A stretch of 64,000 bases of DNA from a virus: positions 1 to 64,000 of IMG/VR virus record IMGVR_UViG_3300030060_005313; one strand, given 5' to 3'. Positions 39,641 through 55,510 of this stretch are shown here, one piece after another. The first letter of the stretch is position 1, and each line of letters starts with the position of its first letter. The position numbers and the translations under genes were made by a program. The notes beneath the pieces are model-generated. The model searched no databases. It was given only the letters and a program-made list of their open reading frames with translations, and had not been told where the DNA came from.

Positions 39641-39964
39641 GTGGCATATAATTACTTTAAAGGTATACCAGAATTACCTGAGTATGCTAGAGAAAAAAGA
39701 AAAAGACCACCGATGGTGGCAGTTGTTGATGAGGATAATTGTACGGGATGTCAAGCATGCGTTCCTTTCTGTCCTGTGGATTGTATTGAGCCAGTAGCTA
39801 GTGATAAGTATGAATGGCCGGTTATTCCTCCTGTACAGGTTAGGTTTAATGAGTGTACTGGATGTCAGGTATGTGCAAGGGTTTGTACAAAGTTTACTTG
39901 GGATGCGATAAGAATGTTGAAAACAGATACATTTGAAGAATTATATCAATTTGAGGTAGATTAA
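39641..39964 (+). CDS. Ferredoxin with two [4Fe-4S] clusters
   Basis: 107 residues from GTG 39641, with GGAG 7 bases upstream. CTGCQACVPFCPVDC near 32-46 and CTGCQVCARVC near 73-83 are two CxxCxxCxxxC clusters. It would carry electrons in the cytoplasm; the insert between clusters is longer than in bacterial 2[4Fe-4S] ferredoxins. Partner enzyme unknown. Phage ferredoxins are usually 2Fe-2S plant-type, so this is unusual. Confidence 0.92.
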   Translation: MAYNYFKGIPELPEYAREKRKRPPMVAVVDEDNCTGCQACVPFCPVDCIEPVASDKYEWPVIPPVQVRFNECTGCQVCARVCTKFTWDAIRMLKTDTFEELYQFEVD

Positions 39965-42245: not shown

Positions 42246-42483
42246 CCAATTACAAGAATTATTAACAATCACTATGGAAGAGTGTGGTGAATTAATTCAG
42301 GCTTGTAGTAAAGCCATACGATGCGATGATTATCATATGAATAAAAAGCTGATTGAAGAGGTTGGTGATGTCATGTGTATGATTGAATTGTTACAACAAT
42401 ATGATTTGGTCTCTTATCAGGAAATAGATGAGAGAGTAATAGAGAAAAGAAAGAAACTAGAGAAATGGAGTAATTTAATATGA
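42238..42483 (+). CDS. MazG-like nucleotide pyrophosphohydrolase
   Basis: 81 residues from ATG 42238, overlapping the upstream stop. MEECGELIQACSKAI and LIEEVGDVMCMIE carry the E-x2-E and E-x2-D metal-binding pairs of the MazG fold. Phage MazG proteins hydrolyse NTPs or dNTPs; here it lies beside dUTPase, supporting nucleotide sanitation. Confidence 0.85.
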   Translation: MDNQLQELLTITMEECGELIQACSKAIRCDDYHMNKKLIEEVGDVMCMIELLQQYDLVSYQEIDERVIEKRKKLEKWSNLI

Positions 42484-43421
42484 ACATAGGTTATGCCTGT
42501 ATTAATATGCAATTGTCATACCCACAAAAGTATGGTGGTAAAGAGAAAGGTGTAAAACCAATCACCACAGGTCGTAGTATGATTAAAAGAACTTTTGAGT
42601 CTAAAGGTTTAGATTATGCTAGTGAACTTGCATTAGCTAATGCTATGGATTTGGACAGAATCATTGATTGGAATATACTTAACGGTTACAATTTTTTCCG
42701 TATCACATCAGGTCTTGCACCTTGGAAATCGGAATACGAATGGGACGACTTAAAAGATATATCTACAATCAGAACTTACCTACGTTCTGCGGGTATTAAA
42801 TGCGATACTCATAATGTTAGGATTACATCTCATCCTGGTCCTTTCAATGTATTGACATCCCCACACGAACACGTTGTAGAAAATTGTGTTGGTGATTTAA
42901 CTGATCATGGAGATACTTTTGATATGATGAATTTAAGTCGCACACCCTACAACAAAATTAATATTCACATTGGTGGTGCATATGGAGACAAACCAAAATC
43001 AATGGAAAGATTCTGTAAGAACTTTGAAAGGTTACCAGAATCAGTTCAGAGTAGATTGACAGTTGAGAATGATGACAAAGCATCAATGTATTCAGTAAAG
43101 GAGTTATATGATGGAGTATATAAACGTATCGGTATTCCTATTGTTTTCGATTATCATCACCACAAGTTTTGCACAGGTGGATTATCAGAAAGAGAAGCTT
43201 TGGAATTGGCTTGTTCTACTTGGCCCAAAGGTATTACACCAGTTGTCCACTATAGCGAAAGTCGCAGTAAGGAACGACTTGACGAATCAATTAGACCCCA
43301 AGCACATTCTGATTATGTTTACGAGTATATTGATACTTATGATAATGATGTTGATATTATGATTGAAGCAAAACACAAAGAGCTAGCTGTACAGAGATAC
43401 AAAGAGTTACATATAAACTAA
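42480..43421 (+). CDS. uvdE: UV-damage endonuclease, UvdE family
   Basis: 313 residues, TIM-barrel layout. IGYACINMQL at the start, NILNGYNFFRITSG, and VENDDKASMYSVKELY, VFDYHHHKF carry the metal ligands of UvdE. It would nick DNA 5' of UV photoproducts, useful in sunlit water. It overlaps MazG by 4 bases. Confidence 0.92.
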   Translation: MNIGYACINMQLSYPQKYGGKEKGVKPITTGRSMIKRTFESKGLDYASELALANAMDLDRIIDWNILNGYNFFRITSGLAPWKSEYEWDDLKDISTIRTYLRSAGIKCDTHNVRITSHPGPFNVLTSPHEHVVENCVGDLTDHGDTFDMMNLSRTPYNKINIHIGGAYGDKPKSMERFCKNFERLPESVQSRLTVENDDKASMYSVKELYDGVYKRIGIPIVFDYHHHKFCTGGLSEREALELACSTWPKGITPVVHYSESRSKERLDESIRPQAHSDYVYEYIDTYDNDVDIMIEAKHKELAVQRYKELHIN

Positions 43422-43456: not shown

Positions 43457-43473
43457 GATTTATGGAGATTACT

Positions 43474-44712
43474 GTGACCAAAAATGAATTTAGAAATTTA
43501 GTTGTATCTGAACTTAAAGATTATTTAGAAGCTAAAATGAGTTCAGAAGAAGCTAAAGTCCTACAGTTTCTAATCAAACACGGTGCCAACCCAAAAGAAG
43601 CAGAAAAAGATGTTAAGAAACATTTTAAAAATGCTAAAAGAATTTGGAGAGGTTCTACTCCTGCAAAACTTGCAAATAAAATTTCCTTTCTAGCAGCAAA
43701 CGAATCCATTACAGAATCCCATCACGATAAAAAAGAAGGTAAGATGGCTAAGTACGATGCAAAAGAAATAGCCGAAGATTCTATTGCTGTTTTTAAAATG
43801 ATAGATAAAGATATGGATTTACCTGAATGGTTAGAAGCTAAGATTACAAAGTCAGCAGACTATATGAATTCAGTAAAAGATTATCTAACTCACCATATGA
43901 AAAGTGATGATAGTGATAATGAGAATCAGTCTCAAAACGAAGATATGAAAAATACTTCTAATATGATGAAGTCTGTTCGTAAAGGACCCAAAGTCGGACC
44001 TTGGGATATCATTGTAAGTAAAAATAATAAGATAGTAAAAAGAGTACTTGTAAAAAATCTAAAAGAGATACCAGCAGAAATGTCTGATTTGAGAGACAAG
44101 TATCCAAACCATGTTATCGGTATAGAATCTAAAGCAGGTAAGATAGTTTACAGAGAAGGAACTTGTGGTTATGGAGTAGATGGTAAGTTAGGAGAAGAAC
44201 CAGCAGGTCCTCATCTACTTAATAAAAGAAGATTACTAAAGTCTAAGAAGAAAAAATTTGATTTAGATGAAGCTTGTCAAAAAGGATATATGACACATCC
44301 TACTCGTAAAACTAAAATTATGTTTGGTAAACGATATAGGAATTGTGTTAAGAAAGAAGGGGCTGATACCACAGTTACTTTAGAACAAGCAGAACAAATT
44401 GCAGATAATATTTGTGTAAATTGTGGTGACTTTACAAATGAAAATTTAAGGAAGTGGTTCAAACAGAAATGGGTGAACATCGGAAAGAAAAAGAAGGGTG
44501 GTGGACATCCTCCTTGTGGTACAAGTGGTAAGAAGAGAGGGTATGCTAAATGTGTTCCAGCTTCTAAAGCTGCTAGTATGACAAAGAAACAAAAGGCAAG
44601 TGCTACTCGTAGAAAGAGAGCAGCTCAAAATAAGAAAGGTAGAGGTGGTACATCATCACTCAAAGGTGGTGGTAAGAAACCAATATACGTTTCTACTAAG
44701 CCTAAGAAATGA
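43474..44712 (+). CDS. Modular internal-head-like protein
   Basis: 412 residues from GTG 43474 (GGAG 6 bases upstream). Separate blocks are visible: residues 114-138 (LPEWLEAKITKSADYMNSV), 168-229, a Cys block at 267-295 (DEACQKGYMTHPTRKT, then FGKRYRNCVKK), and a strongly basic C-terminus (312-412) with CVNCGDF, HPPCGTSGKKRGYAKCVP and RRKRAAQNKKGR. I recall several of these as recurring modules in virion proteins of large marine phages. Possible prohead-protease sites: SITE/S (78-81), DLDE/A (263-266). Probably packaged with DNA. Confidence 0.7.
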   Translation: MTKNEFRNLVVSELKDYLEAKMSSEEAKVLQFLIKHGANPKEAEKDVKKHFKNAKRIWRGSTPAKLANKISFLAANESITESHHDKKEGKMAKYDAKEIAEDSIAVFKMIDKDMDLPEWLEAKITKSADYMNSVKDYLTHHMKSDDSDNENQSQNEDMKNTSNMMKSVRKGPKVGPWDIIVSKNNKIVKRVLVKNLKEIPAEMSDLRDKYPNHVIGIESKAGKIVYREGTCGYGVDGKLGEEPAGPHLLNKRRLLKSKKKKFDLDEACQKGYMTHPTRKTKIMFGKRYRNCVKKEGADTTVTLEQAEQIADNICVNCGDFTNENLRKWFKQKWVNIGKKKKGGGHPPCGTSGKKRGYAKCVPASKAASMTKKQKASATRRKRAAQNKKGRGGTSSLKGGGKKPIYVSTKPKK

Positions 44713-44713
44713 T

Positions 44714-45148
44714 ATGATTAAACTACAAGACTTATTAGAACAAAAATACAAAGAGTGTCCACCAGCAACACAAGATGTAAAGTTGAATACTCAGAATAGA
44801 GATATCACAACTAGAGACTTTAACTATGGTCCTCAAGATGTAGATAATCCAGGTGACTATTGGGAGAAAGTTGCTAAGAGGTGGAATACTGAAGTAGAGA
44901 ACGTTAACAAATCTTTATGTGGTAATTGTGTTGCATTTGATATTTCACCAAGAATGTTAGAGTGTATGCCAGGTGAAGTGTCAGATGATTCAGGTCATTT
45001 AGGATACTGTTGGATGCATCATTTCAAATGTCACTCTAAACGTAGTTGTCATACTTGGGCTAAAGGTGGTCCTATAAAAGATGATAGGGTTTCTTACATT
45101 TGGGGTAAGAAGGCCTTTGGTGGAAAAGATGCCAAAGAAGTGGAGTAA
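44714..45148 (+). CDS. Cys-rich protein with capsid-targeting-like N-terminus
   Basis: 144 residues from ATG 44714, one base after the upstream stop. It begins MIKLQDLLEQKYKE, one of four similar N-termini in this cluster. The body has seven cysteines (SLCGNCVAFDISPRMLECMP, GYCWMHHFKCHSKRSC), a block I recall from T4-like marine phages. Likely a metal-binding virion or core protein. Confidence 0.7.
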   Translation: MIKLQDLLEQKYKECPPATQDVKLNTQNRDITTRDFNYGPQDVDNPGDYWEKVAKRWNTEVENVNKSLCGNCVAFDISPRMLECMPGEVSDDSGHLGYCWMHHFKCHSKRSCHTWAKGGPIKDDRVSYIWGKKAFGGKDAKEVE

Positions 45149-46745
45149 AAAATACAAACGAAGTATTGATTGTAATAACCCAAAAGGATTTAGTCAAAAG
45201 GCACATTGTGCTGGAAGAAAGAAGAAGGAGAACGTAATGAGTTCAAAGTTAGAAGAGCTAGTAGGTAAACCAATTACAGAAGAACAATTTGATGAAGCCG
45301 CAGGTAAGAAAGATGCGTGCTACCACAAAGTCAAAGCTCGTTACGATGTATGGCCATCAGCTTACGCGAGTGGAGCACTTGTCAAGTGTCGTAAGGTAGG
45401 TGCTAAGAATTGGGGTAATAAATCCAAAAAAGAAGGTGTCAATGAACAGAGTTGGCATAAAGATTTCAAAGGATATAGTGATAAAGAACTAAAAGTTATT
45501 TCTAAATTTATTATGTTGAGTGATAAAGGTATTGATGGTGTTATCAAAATGTCTAAGAAAAAAGCTTTTAAACCTATGATAAAAAAAATGGCACAAAAAG
45601 GATTACATGAAAATGTGAATGAAGTTGATGCCGCTACTCAAAAGAAGATAGATAAACTTAGAGCAGATAAGAAAAGGCAAATTGATCTTCAAAAGAGAGT
45701 AAAAGATTTTCAAATGAGGGCTACAGTAGGTAAAAAAATTGACAGTCTTAATAGACAAATTCGTAAACTTCGTGGAGAAGGCTTAGATGATTTAAAAGCA
45801 TTACCAAAAGACCTAAAGAAAAGTATTAAAAAAAGTAGGGAAGAAAATGTAAATGAAGCCAGAGATCCTATTATAGATAAAATGGACAGAAAAACAAAAA
45901 TTACTTTTTCTAAAAGTTTGAGTCCAAGACTAAATCACTTAAAAGGTAAGACTCTTACAGTTGTCAAAAAAGGTATTAATCTTTTTAACGTATTGCCTGA
46001 TGGTGCTAAGTATAATCCAGCAAATGTCAGAACGATAGAAGCACCAGTGCTTTTGAGAATGATGAAGAATAGAGCTATAACAAAAATTATCGATGGTAAA
46101 GGTAAGGTTCTTCACAACGTAAGAGAGGGAGTATTAAAAGAGAATCCAGCTGCAATAGCCGCTGCTCAGAGAATGGTTGTACAGAATAAATCAGGTAATA
46201 AGATATCTGTAAATACTGCACGTCAATCTTCATATGCACAAAAAGATCCTTCGACACATAAGAAAGCTAAAAGTTTGTTTCAGAGAATTAAAGATAAATT
46301 TAAAAAGAAAGAATCCGTAGATGAAGCCAGAGGAACTTGTTGGGTAGGATACCAACAAAAAGGTATGAAGGAAAAGAATGGTAGAATGGTGCCTAATTGT
46401 GTAAAAGAAATAATCGAAATATTCTATGAAGAAAATGGAGAGGGACACGGATACACATTTGAACATATAAAAGAAAATAATTTAAATGAAGCCGAATACC
46501 AAGGTAGAAAAGTGAAGTTAGGGAAGATAATGCAAGGTGATGTAAAGAAGTTCAAAGTATATGTTAAGAATCCAAAAGGTAATGTAGTTAAGGTTAACTT
46601 TGGACAAGGTGGTGATGCTAAAGGTGGAACAATGAGAATCAGAAAATCCAATCCTAAGGCAAGAGCTAATTTTAGAGCGAGACATAATTGTGATAACCCA
46701 GGGCCAAGACATAAGGCCAGATATTGGAGTTGCAGAAAATGGTAA
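45129..46745 (+). CDS. Modular polyprotein-like internal head protein with repeated VNE/A sites
   Basis: 538 basic residues from ATG 45129. Successive modules are separated by short linkers ending in a V/L-N/D-E motif: E106, E165, E243, E399 and E454. Modules include SIDCNNPKGFSQKAHCAGR (12-30), DACYHKVKARYDVWPSAYA (62-80), a coiled coil (168-235), GTCWVGYQQKGMKEKNGRM (402-420) and a C-terminal HNCDNPGPRHKARYWSC. The L/I/V-x-E/A pattern resembles T4 gp21 prohead-protease sites, so it may be cut into several small basic DNA-associated proteins. The cleavage is inference. Confidence 0.7.
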   Translation: MPKKWSKKYKRSIDCNNPKGFSQKAHCAGRKKKENVMSSKLEELVGKPITEEQFDEAAGKKDACYHKVKARYDVWPSAYASGALVKCRKVGAKNWGNKSKKEGVNEQSWHKDFKGYSDKELKVISKFIMLSDKGIDGVIKMSKKKAFKPMIKKMAQKGLHENVNEVDAATQKKIDKLRADKKRQIDLQKRVKDFQMRATVGKKIDSLNRQIRKLRGEGLDDLKALPKDLKKSIKKSREENVNEARDPIIDKMDRKTKITFSKSLSPRLNHLKGKTLTVVKKGINLFNVLPDGAKYNPANVRTIEAPVLLRMMKNRAITKIIDGKGKVLHNVREGVLKENPAAIAAAQRMVVQNKSGNKISVNTARQSSYAQKDPSTHKKAKSLFQRIKDKFKKKESVDEARGTCWVGYQQKGMKEKNGRMVPNCVKEIIEIFYEENGEGHGYTFEHIKENNLNEAEYQGRKVKLGKIMQGDVKKFKVYVKNPKGNVVKVNFGQGGDAKGGTMRIRKSNPKARANFRARHNCDNPGPRHKARYWSCRKW

Positions 46746-46969
46746 ATGAAAAAGATAATGCGTATCCAAATATAAGTAGACATTCTAGTTTTTTAATAGA
46801 TGATATGTTAGATGATTCTGCTCAACTCTATGATAAGTATGAAGTAGCAAAGTTAATAAAATCGTTAGTAAGAGATGGAATGGATAAGAATTATTTAATT
46901 AAACTGTACAGAAAAAATCCTATGAAATTTTCAGATGAATTAGAAGATATAAAGAAGTCCTCACGATGA
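46739..46969 (+). CDS. Small helical protein of the head-protein cluster
   Basis: 76 residues from ATG 46739, overlapping the upstream stop; GGAG lies 9 bases before. Helical with LIDDMLDDSAQLYDKYEVAK. It overlaps the next MIKL gene by 4 bases. Unknown. Confidence 0.6.
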   Translation: MVNEKDNAYPNISRHSSFLIDDMLDDSAQLYDKYEVAKLIKSLVRDGMDKNYLIKLYRKNPMKFSDELEDIKKSSR

Positions 46970-47439
46970 TTAAACTAAAAAAACTACTAACAGAAGCACC
47001 TCAAATTAAGAAGGTAAAGAATGTTTCCGTACAATACTTTGGTGCAGAATATGCTGGTGAGATGGCTTTCTCAGGATACTTTAGAAAAGCATGGTTGTAT
47101 GAAAAAGATAATGGTGAATGGTTTGCTATAGTGATTACCAAAAATAAGAATAGGTATCAGATTGAATTAGGTAAACACAAAAATAAATTAAGTGCAGATA
47201 AGGCAGCAGAAAAAATCATTAAAAGAAATCTTAATAAATTTGAATCTGTAAATGAAAAGATGAATCCACGAAGATACTCTGAGATAAAAGGTCAGGCTAG
47301 GTATCTTGCTATGGAAATGAAATCTTTAAACAAAGCTATCAGAACTCAAGATGAAGATTTAATTGTAGATAGTATAGATTACATATTAGGTAAAGCAAAA
47401 ATGATGAAAGAAATCTTAGGGGATAAGAGATATGATTAA
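46966..47439 (+). CDS. Protein with capsid-targeting-like N-terminus (MIKLKKLLTE)
   Basis: 157 residues. MIKLKKLLTEA at the start fits a T4-type capsid-targeting peptide, with a possible cut after LTE. The middle is a beta-rich Lys module, then ESVNEK at about 93-98 as a second candidate site, then a helical C-terminal domain. It overlaps both neighbours. Confidence 0.7.
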   Translation: MIKLKKLLTEAPQIKKVKNVSVQYFGAEYAGEMAFSGYFRKAWLYEKDNGEWFAIVITKNKNRYQIELGKHKNKLSADKAAEKIIKRNLNKFESVNEKMNPRRYSEIKGQARYLAMEMKSLNKAIRTQDEDLIVDSIDYILGKAKMMKEILGDKRYD

Positions 47440-47866
47440 ACTAAAAGAATTACTAAAAGAAAGTTTCTATGTTGCATTAGTATCAAAACCACGTACAGGA
47501 AACTTTAACAAACCGGTTGGAAATTTTAAACTAATGTCTAAGGGTAGAGCTGCTGGTTTAGCTGCTCAGTCTGCTGAGAAAATATTAAAATCTGAAATAG
47601 GTAGAAACTTATCTAGAGAAGCTGCGGAGAATGCAAAGGTAGTTGCAACATATGATGAGAAAGGTGTTCATCACGGAAGAATCAATATGGGCCCAAGAAG
47701 ATTTGTGAGTGCAATTGCAGCCGAAGTAGATATAGAAGAAAGAAAATTCGGTATGAACATATCCAATAAATCTATACAGGTTACTAAAAATATGGATATG
47801 GTAATTGGAAAGACACAAAAAGATGTTGAGAAAATGTTAAAAAACAAATATAAAGTTAAAGTATGA
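47432..47866 (+). CDS. Protein with capsid-targeting-like N-terminus (MIKLKELLKE)
   Basis: 144 residues, basic. After MIKLKELLKES the body contains AAGLAAQSAEKILKSE and RINMGPRRFVSAIAAE. No family recognised beyond the shared leader. It overlaps both neighbours by 4-8 bases. Confidence 0.7.
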   Translation: MIKLKELLKESFYVALVSKPRTGNFNKPVGNFKLMSKGRAAGLAAQSAEKILKSEIGRNLSREAAENAKVVATYDEKGVHHGRINMGPRRFVSAIAAEVDIEERKFGMNISNKSIQVTKNMDMVIGKTQKDVEKMLKNKYKVKV

Positions 47867-48237
47867 TTAAACTAAAAGATTTACTATTAGAAAAGAAATT
47901 AACTGATAAGGATATCAATGTTGGTGACGCATATCATAGAAAGACGCATGTTGGTTATGTGGTTAGTTTTGTATATGGTAAAAATAGTTATGGTAGTTGG
48001 ACAACAATAGAATATCAATTTAAACCACAATACGGAAAACCAGGATTTATGGGAGTAGGATTTGGATCTGCTACAGGAGTTAATGGTTATGGTAAATGGC
48101 CAAAGGTTAAAGTTACTTCTAAAATGAAAAAGGAAATGATTAAGACTTTACAAGATAAGAATTCAGAAGAAGTGGATGTATTAATACGAAATGATTTACG
48201 ATTATCCAATGTATTGAGTTGGGTTAAGAGATTATGA
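47863..48237 (+). CDS. Protein with capsid-targeting-like N-terminus (MIKLKDLLLE)
   Basis: 124 residues. After MIKLKDLLLEK there is a beta-rich domain (VGDAYHRKTHVGYVVSF, YQFKPQYGKPGFMGVG). Basic. ATGA overlap with the gene before. Role unknown apart from the leader. Confidence 0.7.
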   Translation: MIKLKDLLLEKKLTDKDINVGDAYHRKTHVGYVVSFVYGKNSYGSWTTIEYQFKPQYGKPGFMGVGFGSATGVNGYGKWPKVKVTSKMKKEMIKTLQDKNSEEVDVLIRNDLRLSNVLSWVKRL

Positions 48238-48570: not shown

Positions 48571-49401
48571 ATGGATAAATCCAAGGTAAAGACGGTTACA
48601 CAAATCAAGTCTAATCAACCCTGTGAAAACAAACGACAAGCTCTGTCACAAATTAAAAGAATAGATTGGAGGTCATTAGAGTTTAGAACACCTAATCAGA
48701 AAGGTTTCTATCATACTATTAGTAGAAATGATGTTACTTTTTCAGTAGGCCCAGCGGGTTGTGGTAAGACATTTTTAGCTACACATTATGCGTTGAAAAA
48801 TCTTGCAAAAGGTAAGTATGATAAGATGGTAATTACTAAACCGCTTGTAGAAGTGGATGGTGAAAAGATGGGATATTTACCTGGTGATATAGATGAAAAA
48901 ACCGCACCATACATGATGTCATTATATTATAATATGGAACAGATTATTGGAAAGCAAAGATTGGAAGTTCTGAAGAAAGCTGGTGTAGTACAGGTTATAC
49001 CACTAGCTTATATGAGAGGTTTAACATTGACTGATAGTATAGTAGTCTTAGATGAGGCACAGAATGCAACACCTGCACAAATAAAAACTTTCATAACCCG
49101 TATAGGTAGTGGGAGTAAATATATAGTTTGTGGGGATTTAATGCAATCGGATATTAGAAAAGAAAATGGTTTAGAAGATTCAATTAAGAGATTTACGGGA
49201 ATTAGAAGAGTTGGATTCAGTCAGTTTGATTTAGAAGATGTTGTTAGGCATCCTATAGTTGCAGAGCTATTGGAAAGATATCAAGATGATTATGAGTTAG
49301 GTTCATTATCTGCAGAAGAAACTCTTTCTATGTGGATACAGAAACAAACATTTGATGAACCACAGATTAATAATAGATACTTTTACAAAATAAGGAATTA
49401 A
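48571..49401 (+). CDS. phoH: PhoH-like ATPase
   Basis: 276 residues. Walker A GPAGCGKT at 60-67, a YMRGLTL block, and Walker B IVVLDEAQNATPAQIKTF, then GDLMQSD. PhoH is one of the commonest genes of marine phages; it is an ATPase linked to RNA metabolism, with an unclear role in infection. AAGGAG precedes the ATG. Confidence 0.95.
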   Translation: MDKSKVKTVTQIKSNQPCENKRQALSQIKRIDWRSLEFRTPNQKGFYHTISRNDVTFSVGPAGCGKTFLATHYALKNLAKGKYDKMVITKPLVEVDGEKMGYLPGDIDEKTAPYMMSLYYNMEQIIGKQRLEVLKKAGVVQVIPLAYMRGLTLTDSIVVLDEAQNATPAQIKTFITRIGSGSKYIVCGDLMQSDIRKENGLEDSIKRFTGIRRVGFSQFDLEDVVRHPIVAELLERYQDDYELGSLSAEETLSMWIQKQTFDEPQINNRYFYKIRN

Positions 49402-54239: not shown

Positions 54240-54665
54240 ATGAAAAATCAGAAAGGATTCACATTAATAGAACTTATTATGGTTACAATCATTTTAGGTA
54301 TTTTGGCTGCTGTTGCTATTCCTCGATATATGACATCGGTTACGAAAGCAGAAGAAGCGGCTGAGGATGCGGTTATTAGTGCAATCAAAGCTGGTTTAGA
54401 AACTTATGCTGTAGAACAACTTATGGAAAATGGCCGTAGAAGTTGGCCTGATAATCCATGGGATGCTTTAGAAACTAAACCTGCTGGATACACTACGGAC
54501 GCTACTGATGCAGATGTTGATGGTGAGTGGACATACAATACCACTTCGAAAAAAATCACACATCAGCGTGGTGATAACTCTCGTGTAGGTTGGCAATATG
54601 ATGAAGGGGTACAAACAGGAGATGATGCTGCTGTTGGTACACTTGGTGTAAGAGCTGATTTGTAG
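54240..54665 (+). CDS. Type IV prepilin / pseudopilin
   Basis: 141 residues. KNQKGFTLIELIMVTIILGI is a textbook prepilin peptidase site (G/F, Glu5) and helix. The mature part is acidic with DNPWDALE and GEWTYNTT blocks. It needs a host prepilin peptidase and assembly motor, which are absent in this window. Confidence 0.93.
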   Translation: MKNQKGFTLIELIMVTIILGILAAVAIPRYMTSVTKAEEAAEDAVISAIKAGLETYAVEQLMENGRRSWPDNPWDALETKPAGYTTDATDADVDGEWTYNTTSKKITHQRGDNSRVGWQYDEGVQTGDDAAVGTLGVRADL

Positions 54666-54674
54666 GAGTTAACT

Positions 54675-55115
54675 ATGAGAAACTCTAAAGGGTTTACTCT
54701 GATAGAGTTGGTAGTAACTATTGCTTTAGTGGGGATACTCGTTGGTTCGGCTATCCCCACTTTTCATAGAGCGGTAAGTGAAACTCAGATATCAGTAAAT
54801 GTCTCTAATATGACAATCATAAAACAAACATTTATGCAATATTACTACGACAATCATATGAGCGGTAATCCACACTTTCCACAATTACCACAAGATAGCC
54901 TGATGGATGCTACATACCGACAAACTGTACTAGGGGATGGTAGAACACCTGATATGCTGTTTAGTGGAGATTTGCCTTACAATACAAATCAAAAGCCTTA
55001 TATTTATTATTGGGAAAACGATACGTTAAATGGATATGTGACTAAACGTATTATAATAAAAGATACAGACCCTGATAGTCCATCTTTTGAAAAAGAAGTA
55101 GTTGGAGAAATTTAG
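54675..55115 (+). CDS. Type IV prepilin / pseudopilin
   Basis: 146 residues. MRNSKGFTLIELVVTIALVG is the cleavage and helix region. The mature part has PHFPQLPQDSLMDATYRQ, and a strand-rich end. It shares its last base with the next pilin gene start (GTG). Confidence 0.93.
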   Translation: MRNSKGFTLIELVVTIALVGILVGSAIPTFHRAVSETQISVNVSNMTIIKQTFMQYYYDNHMSGNPHFPQLPQDSLMDATYRQTVLGDGRTPDMLFSGDLPYNTNQKPYIYYWENDTLNGYVTKRIIIKDTDPDSPSFEKEVVGEI

Positions 55116-55510
55116 TGAGTAAAGGCTTTACACTAATAGAAATATTAGTTGTGATTCTTTTGATTGGTATAATGAGTGCAATAGCAGTACCACGATTTGA
55201 GAAAAGAATCGAGCTAGAAGAATTAAAACACGAAAAGAAATTCACATATACATTATGGGAAGAGTTGGAAGTATATGCAAAGAAACAATATGAATTGACA
55301 GGTGAACAAAGTTGGCCTGAACATCCATTATCTGTTTTAGGTAGAACAAGAAATATAGTAGTCACTTATGATTTAGGAATACCTGATGATGATAATGAGT
55401 GGCAGTTTGATGGAACTAATTTATACCATAGGAGAATGAATAATGAAATCTGGTATTACCAATATAATCCCAATACTTTTTTTCTTTCTGAACATCCAAT
55501 TAGGCTATAG
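55115..55510 (+). CDS. Type IV prepilin / pseudopilin
   Basis: 131 residues from GTG 55115. SKGFTLIEILVVILLIGI is the prepilin region. Mature part contains LWEELEVYAKKQYELTG and DDNEWQFDGTNLYH, similar in order to the 54240 gene (GEWTYN). It overlaps the next gene by 68 bases. Confidence 0.92.
   Translation: MSKGFTLIEILVVILLIGIMSAIAVPRFEKRIELEELKHEKKFTYTLWEELEVYAKKQYELTGEQSWPEHPLSVLGRTRNIVVTYDLGIPDDDNEWQFDGTNLYHRRMNNEIWYYQYNPNTFFLSEHPIRL

Follow-up and report, generated by a model that had tools for sequence, protein, structure and literature searches.

A repeated MIKL leader in a T4-like phage as a probable capsid-targeting sequence, with candidate head-targeted polyproteins

The window analyzed here comprises the first 64 kb of the 125.6-kb viral record IMGVR_UViG_3300030060_005313, which by its sequence is a T4-like phage; the terminase of the record is nearest to those of Microcystis phage Mel-JY01 and Flavobacterium immuto-group phages (57–61% identity). 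Within the window, the 12-mer ATGATTAAACTA occurs in exactly four copies, every one at a gene start (44714, 46966, 47432 and 47863), compared with a mean of 0.07 and a maximum of 2 in the shuffled window, and the four genes encode the leaders MIKLQDLLEQ, MIKLKKLLTE, MIKLKELLKE and MIKLKDLLLE, respectively. The original prediction, that four otherwise unrelated proteins share a MIKL start with matching DNA, is thus borne out; no Pfam or PHROG family is common to the bodies of the four genes. The features of the cluster are as follows, where an arrow marks a predicted cut and nucleotide positions (nt) are those of the window.

43462..44712, + strand: modular basic protein (reading frame also open from TTG 43450), with predicted prohead-protease sites ITE↓SHHD (after nt 43716) and TNE↓NLRKWF (after nt 44442)
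44714..44740, + strand: leader MIKLQDLLE, predicted cut L-L-E↓Q
44714..45148, + strand: leader-bearing Cys-rich protein, pattern CPPATQ...CxNCxAF...YCWMHHFKCHSxRSC
45129..46745, + strand: predicted polyprotein of 538 amino acids (aa), with sites backed by context switches at VLKE↓NPAAIA (after nt 46142), VDE↓ARGTCWVGYQ (46325) and LNE↓AEYQGRKVK (46490)
46966..46995, + strand: leader MIKLKKLLTE, fitting the leader rule (below), predicted cut L-T-E↓A
46966..47439, + strand: two-module precursor, predicted internal site SVNE↓KMNPRRY after nt 47256
47432..47461, + strand: leader MIKLKELLKE, fitting the leader rule, predicted cut L-K-E↓S
47432..47866, + strand: leader-bearing protein, with a distant fused homologue (TIAE↓DIYVALVSK) in contig L241
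47863..47892, + strand: leader MIKLKDLLLE, fitting the leader rule, predicted cut L-L-E↓K
47863..48237, + strand: leader-bearing protein, compact alpha/beta domain in an AlphaFold2 model

In T4, the first ten residues of IPIII suffice as a capsid-targeting sequence, positions 4 and 7 serving targeting and positions 8 and 10 processing (PMC9026906). The residues important there are carried by MIKLKDLLxE as L4, L7, L8 and E10, and three of the leaders (46966, 47432 and 47863) fit M-I-K-L-K-x-L-L-x-E exactly. A leader rule was defined as M at the start, hydrophobic residues at 4, 7 and 8, and E at 10. A search of the genome for other leaders, which had been suggested with the original prediction, returned no more than these: among 166 non-overlapping open reading frames (ORFs) of the whole record, only the same three carry the rule at a plausible start, a fourth match being the upstream extension of the terminase ORF, and internal methionines are followed by the pattern in 0.15% of cases. 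We consider it very probable that the MIKLKxLLxE leader targets proteins to the capsid as the T4 peptide does; together with the proposed cleavage after L/I-x-E, this is the account best supported by several lines of comparison that are independent of one another. The amphipathic N-terminal peptide would bind the scaffold core during prohead assembly and carry its protein into the prohead, where an S77 (gp21-type) prohead protease would cut after [L/I/V]-x-E and free the mature protein inside the head. The mature protein would remain there with the DNA and presumably be delivered to the host along with it, an outcome that the analogy with the T4 internal proteins (IPs) and Alt renders somewhat more plausible than its opposite. 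The same cut signal inside longer precursors would yield several mature proteins from one targeted polypeptide. It is packaging and cleavage in this phage that we infer from the comparisons below.

The first of these comparisons used 2.9 million viral contigs, scanned for starts that encode M-I-K-L-K-[DE]-L-L, residues 9 and 10 being free to vary; the scan yielded 103 distinct ORFs with a length of 50 aa or more, whose bodies clustered into 56 unrelated families. Glutamate stands at residue 10 in 83 of the 103 ORFs and in 46 of the 56 families, as against 18 of 296 occurrences (6%) of a relaxed leader pattern inside proteins (Fisher p 6e-48), and some of the exceptions represent a shifted site (e.g. 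MIKLKDLLNPPVLNE↓G and MIKLKELLPISE↓G). Across phages the leader codons vary synonymously at most positions, E10 itself being written as GAA or GAG. Of 14 matches to a scrambled control pattern, one opens an ORF of 50 aa or more, which also speaks for the leader, although over-representation is not claimed from it because the scrambled pattern exceeds that of the leader by one codon. The invariance of M1 and E10 in one alignment (A3) is not evidence because its members were chosen for E10. The scan shows that selection acts on the leader as a peptide, whose glutamate is conserved across unrelated proteins; the original prediction had missed that in environmental phages the leader fronts 56 families or more.

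When all loci were collected with a looser definition of the leader, the number of families rose to 81. Pfam recognizes few of them, namely ART-PolyVal (two leader families), MPTase-PolyVal (one), NUDIX, HD, a zeta-toxin-type kinase, a 5′-nucleotidase (NT5C), lysozyme and domains of unknown function (DUFs), a list that resembles the packaged and injected effector domains predicted by Aravind and colleagues (PMC5512222, PMC9503650); no polyvalent signature domain was matched in Pfam by the window proteins. Other peptides with the same layout occur in other lineages. One contig group carries MKSFTEYLTE, MLSFKEYLSE, MTTFLDFISE and MKTFIEYISE, cyanophage cytidylyltransferases begin with MKKFSAFLxE or MKSFLNFLFE, and in Flavobacterium phage immuto (L007; 13763, 27588 and 28589) three unrelated proteins share the longer leader FDLKKFLVENKLTxNSxLLKE or close variants of it. 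This diversity suggests that each lineage-specific leader may match its own scaffold.

The genomic setting of the leader genes in relatives places them with the head genes. In locus L250 of genome G021, a relative in which both the 44714 and the 46966 genes have counterparts, the coding strand begins with terminase and portal and continues with the S77 prohead protease, a modular protein of 696 aa, the homologues of 44714 and 45129 in that order, and then leader genes starting MVKLQELLNE, MIKFRELLNE, MIKLKELLKE and MIKLKDLYE; the portal–protease region holds leader genes in L253 as well. Three relatives of the right end of the record (L264, L266 and L276) run from the portal region through core-like genes and a homologue of the last gene of the record to the S77 protease, followed by a modular protein, a leader gene of MIKL or similar type, scaffold and capsid protein, so that in L264 and L266 leader genes lie between the protease and the scaffold and capsid genes. 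An S77 match was found in 21 of 38 long leader-related contigs and, among long contigs with a genuine leader from an unbiased scan, in 13 of 23, compared with 1 of 8 controls (p 0.04). The capsid proteins of relatives also contain LIKE↓AS at residue 62/63. We take this position to be close to that of the known cut in T4 gp23.

The virion proteome of the cyanophage S-CREM2, in which 52 of 219 proteins were detected by mass spectrometry (PMC10665884 Table 3), provides an external comparison. Applied at the annotated starts of S-CREM2, the leader rule picks five proteins, namely a SAM hydrolase (MKDFDSFLEE), an APH-like kinase (MKRFDAFLTE), a cytidylyltransferase (MKNFSSFLTE), gp13 and gp136 (with MKDLHSFLTE and MQTFSMFFSE between them), and all five are among the virion-detected proteins (hypergeometric p 6e-4); the kinase is counted at its annotated start, the automatic scan having missed it, since its ORF is open further upstream. 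Separately, a Cas9-like nuclease detected in the same virions (L258 7704-10313) has RFASFMAE, which resembles a T4-type capsid-targeting sequence, near its annotated start.

The same cut signal appears inside larger proteins, among them neighbors of the leader genes in the window, which look like polyproteins and which the original prediction had overlooked. In a junction test, leader-gene bodies were searched inside other proteins with the leader removed from the query, and 16 module families were found internally. The motif [LIVMFT]-x-E directly precedes the module in the majority of cases for 7 of the 16, whereas random nearby offsets gave a mean of 0.23 and a maximum of 3 in 20,000 draws (p ≤ 5e-5), and it lies within two residues of the junction in 10 of 16 families, with 1.2 expected. 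The exchange can be followed in individual pairs. The second module of the 46966 protein is a stand-alone gene with its own leader in G021 (MVKLQELLNE↓SLNPRRYSELKS; MVKLQELLNE↓SLNPRRY versus KFESVNE↓KMNPRRY in the window protein), and so is the SHHDKKEGKMAKYD module of the 43462 protein (MIKLKDLYE↓SHHDRKEGKMAKYD; MIKLKDLYE↓SHHDRKEGK versus ESITE↓SHHDKKEGK). MIKLKDLLKE↓RIDYQDT corresponds to IMENSFIVSE↓RIDYLEI in a metallopeptidase-like gene (94748) of the genome to which the window belongs, and for a zeta-kinase module MIKLMDLLNE↓GVQDKG corresponds to VQNDGTVISE↓GVNDPG. The latter module opens, behind MDKLTEFLIKPFLTE↓, a further large protein of the genome:

114560..118738 of the record (G000; L005:11961-16139), outside the window: 1392-aa protein with the leader-like start MDKLTEFLIKPFLTE

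This protein combines, by Pfam, a zeta/AAA_33 kinase with a cytidylyltransferase-like domain, and has a C-terminal region that is ligase-like by eye only. The [D/N]LRKWF module of the 43462 protein occurs in six further contexts, all with E before the module, and a leader-fronted family of it also exists. In other proteins the modules of the 45129 protein follow different partners or leaders, with xxE at the corresponding position, a pattern weakened by an all-position control, and its CWxGYxxxGMK module is directly leader-fronted in L120 and L173; further ESVNE-like sites in this protein are motif-based only. An 841-aa protein of immuto contains the candidate sites ESVNE↓G and ESLNE↓D. Because leader-borne domains of 7 of 16 families join larger proteins at [LIVMFT]xE, the 43462, 45129, 46966 and 1392-aa proteins are probably polyproteins cleaved by the prohead protease, and we regard their cleavage in the head as moderately likely.

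The strongest alternative accepts the leaders as real capsid-targeting sequences and holds that the internal xxE sites are linkers that favor recombination, within polyvalent proteins that stay whole. Polyvalent proteins such as that RNA polymerase which phage N4 carries in its virion are packaged as intact chains (PMC5512222), and glutamate at P1 is common at context switches also where it falls outside the motif, so that inherited homology may contribute to the junction signal. Counts of P1 glutamate at all context switches were accordingly dropped as evidence, the all-position control giving similar rates for any conserved glutamate, and only the leader-defined junction test is relied on, because context-switch counts overstate independence. 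In that test, the leader xxE is exactly exchanged with an internal xxE before the same module in the seven families given above, and we therefore consider linkers in uncleaved proteins a distinctly less likely account than cleavage, though one that deserves real weight.

The leader, being amphipathic, could alternatively target elsewhere, such as the membrane, the tail or a replication compartment, with the glutamate merely capping the helix, and its destination in this phage is predicted from sequence. Internal copies of the helix pattern, however, lack the preference for E, and the cut-type junctions inside proteins, the synteny with head genes and the agreement with proteins detected in S-CREM2 virions all point to the head, making another destination improbable. 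It is very improbable that the common start is a translation-coupling element from which the peptide similarity follows: the first twelve bases are identical and in three of the four cases ATGATTAA shares bases with the stop codon of the gene before, so part of the DNA identity of the leaders has a mundane source, but this overlap cannot account for codons 4–10, whose residues are kept across phages with synonymous variation, E10 in 46 families, nor for xxE boundaries inside fused proteins, where there is no start codon, nor for the different DNA that encodes analogous peptides such as MKSFTEYLTE in other lineages. Least probable of all is a recent duplication of one gene's 5′ end onto its neighbors with no function of its own, for although the four copies lie close together and have 12 exact bases in common, the leader is found on 56–81 families in many unrelated contigs, and a neutral remnant would decay, whereas E10 is selectively kept.

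Several observations nevertheless weigh against the interpretation of the leaders as capsid-targeting sequences cut by a prohead protease. The first leader, MIKLQDLLE↓Q, has its glutamate at 9 and not at 10; this E9 (LLE at 7–9) is kept in same-lineage orthologues, and orthologues of another lineage start MKSFTEYLTE↓KEHPCPP instead. The prohead protease gene, sought as a check on the original prediction, is not in the 125.6-kb record, nor is a capsid gene. Synteny would place the protease just beyond the record end: the record stops inside a truncated gene whose homologue directly precedes the S77 protease in relatives, which would explain its absence. An S77 match is also absent from 17 of the 38 long leader-related contigs, all possible fragments. 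At the junctions, 9 of the 16 families do not have the motif exactly at the boundary. The published virion data identify proteins, not N-termini, and so speak to presence in the virion, not to cleavage, and the S-CREM2 authors note that abundant infection proteins may be carried over into virions (PMC10665884). Finally, the cytidylyltransferases of HTVC008M, Bellamy and C48C1 have no leader at their annotated starts. By comparison among relatives, modules are joined at the same motif as the leaders and leader genes are kept beside the prohead protease, and these regularities continue to favor capsid targeting.

Among the individual proteins, the Cys-rich domain of the 44714 protein is very widespread, viral contigs holding no fewer than 598 stretches homologous to it; several of its Cys and His residues are invariant, and it is seen both as a leader gene and within large proteins. 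Distant relatives are annotated as high-potential iron-sulfur protein, which we treat as a lead only because the AlphaFold2 model is poor (predicted local distance difference test score, pLDDT, 48) and a profile search of the PDB returned nothing significant. The 47432 protein matches no known family among Pfam and PHROG. In the 47863 protein the junction glutamate is nearly invariant among 17 orthologues, and the domain is fused behind ...ESINE↓ in L022; its AlphaFold2 model has a pLDDT of 86 overall and of ~49 for residues 1–10, so that in the model the leader is outside the folded part, and comparison of the model with the PDB and BFVD gave no confident structural match.

The surroundings of the cluster include the following.

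48571..49401, + strand: PhoH-like gene, downstream of the leader cluster

In cultured relatives phoH is downstream of the capsid gene too. Immediately upstream of the cluster, 42480-43421 encodes a UV-damage endonuclease, UvdE (PF03851, E 3e-54). Elsewhere in the window, 39641-39964 encodes a 4Fe-4S ferredoxin-type protein, and three adjacent genes on the + strand (54240-55510) have type IV pilin-type N-terminal methylation motifs (PF07963), which is unusual for a T4-like phage.

Capsid-targeting leaders are already known from T4. As far as the literature was searched, what is new is a different and widespread leader on dozens of families, with lineage-specific versions, and head-targeted precursors that appear to be joined by the maturation signal; no description of head-targeted polyprotein loading was found there. 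A ten-residue rule would allow the internal virion cargo of uncultured T4-like phages to be read from sequence, and would assign a location, and probably a role early in infection, to dozens of families now labelled 'hypothetical', including ADP-ribosyltransferases, NUDIX proteins, kinases, nucleotidases and Cys-rich proteins. It also predicts exact N-termini, so that existing mass-spectrometry data could test it. Immuto, being in culture, would also allow a test; no virion proteomics for this phage was found in the literature searched. The polyproteins, if real, would mean that phage effectors are loaded and matured in a new manner.

The closest known system is that of T4 IPI–III and Alt, which are processed by gp21 (PMC9026906) and likewise carry a peptide of ~10 residues, with hydrophobic positions 4, 7 and 8 and E10, on otherwise unrelated proteins; the portal and terminase are also of T4 type, and the S77 protease adjoins leader genes in relatives. 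Unlike T4, the leader here is MIKLKxLLxE, it fronts at least 56 families where T4 has only a few, and multi-domain precursors appear to be divided at further cut sites within them. The cyanomyovirus enzymes detected in virions (cytidylyltransferase/NMNAT, kinase and SAM hydrolase; PMC10665884, PMC9602691, PMC9146016) differ from the MIKL proteins in leader sequence and host; those of S-CREM2 share a T4-type leader, as the leader proteins here do, a sharing unmentioned in the portions of these three papers available to us. The ejection proteins of the giant phages phiKZ, 201phi2-1 and SPN3US (PMC10052503, PMC5694885) resemble the present proteins in that many are packaged and cleaved C-terminal to glutamate, but phiKZ uses an S/A-x-E motif and the propeptides are long, multiply cut and discarded, with no short common leader, whereas here the leader is short and P3 is hydrophobic; release of several mature proteins from one chain is not described in the available portions of those reports. 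Polyvalent proteins (Iyer et al. 2017, PMC5512222) are likewise multi-domain effectors predicted to be packaged, and ART-PolyVal and MPTase-PolyVal are among the leader families; they are, however, described as single large effectors, some processed by an internal metallopeptidase, whereas the joints here match the prohead-protease signal and the domains shift between stand-alone leader genes and fusions. In its logic, such an arrangement would be comparable to retroviral Gag-Pol, in that one leader would bring enzymes and DNA-associated modules into the prohead as a single chain for a maturation protease to separate. We lean towards the view that marine T4-like phages make head-targeted polyproteins of this kind, with the leader as the private address of a lineage and modules moving freely between stand-alone genes and chains.

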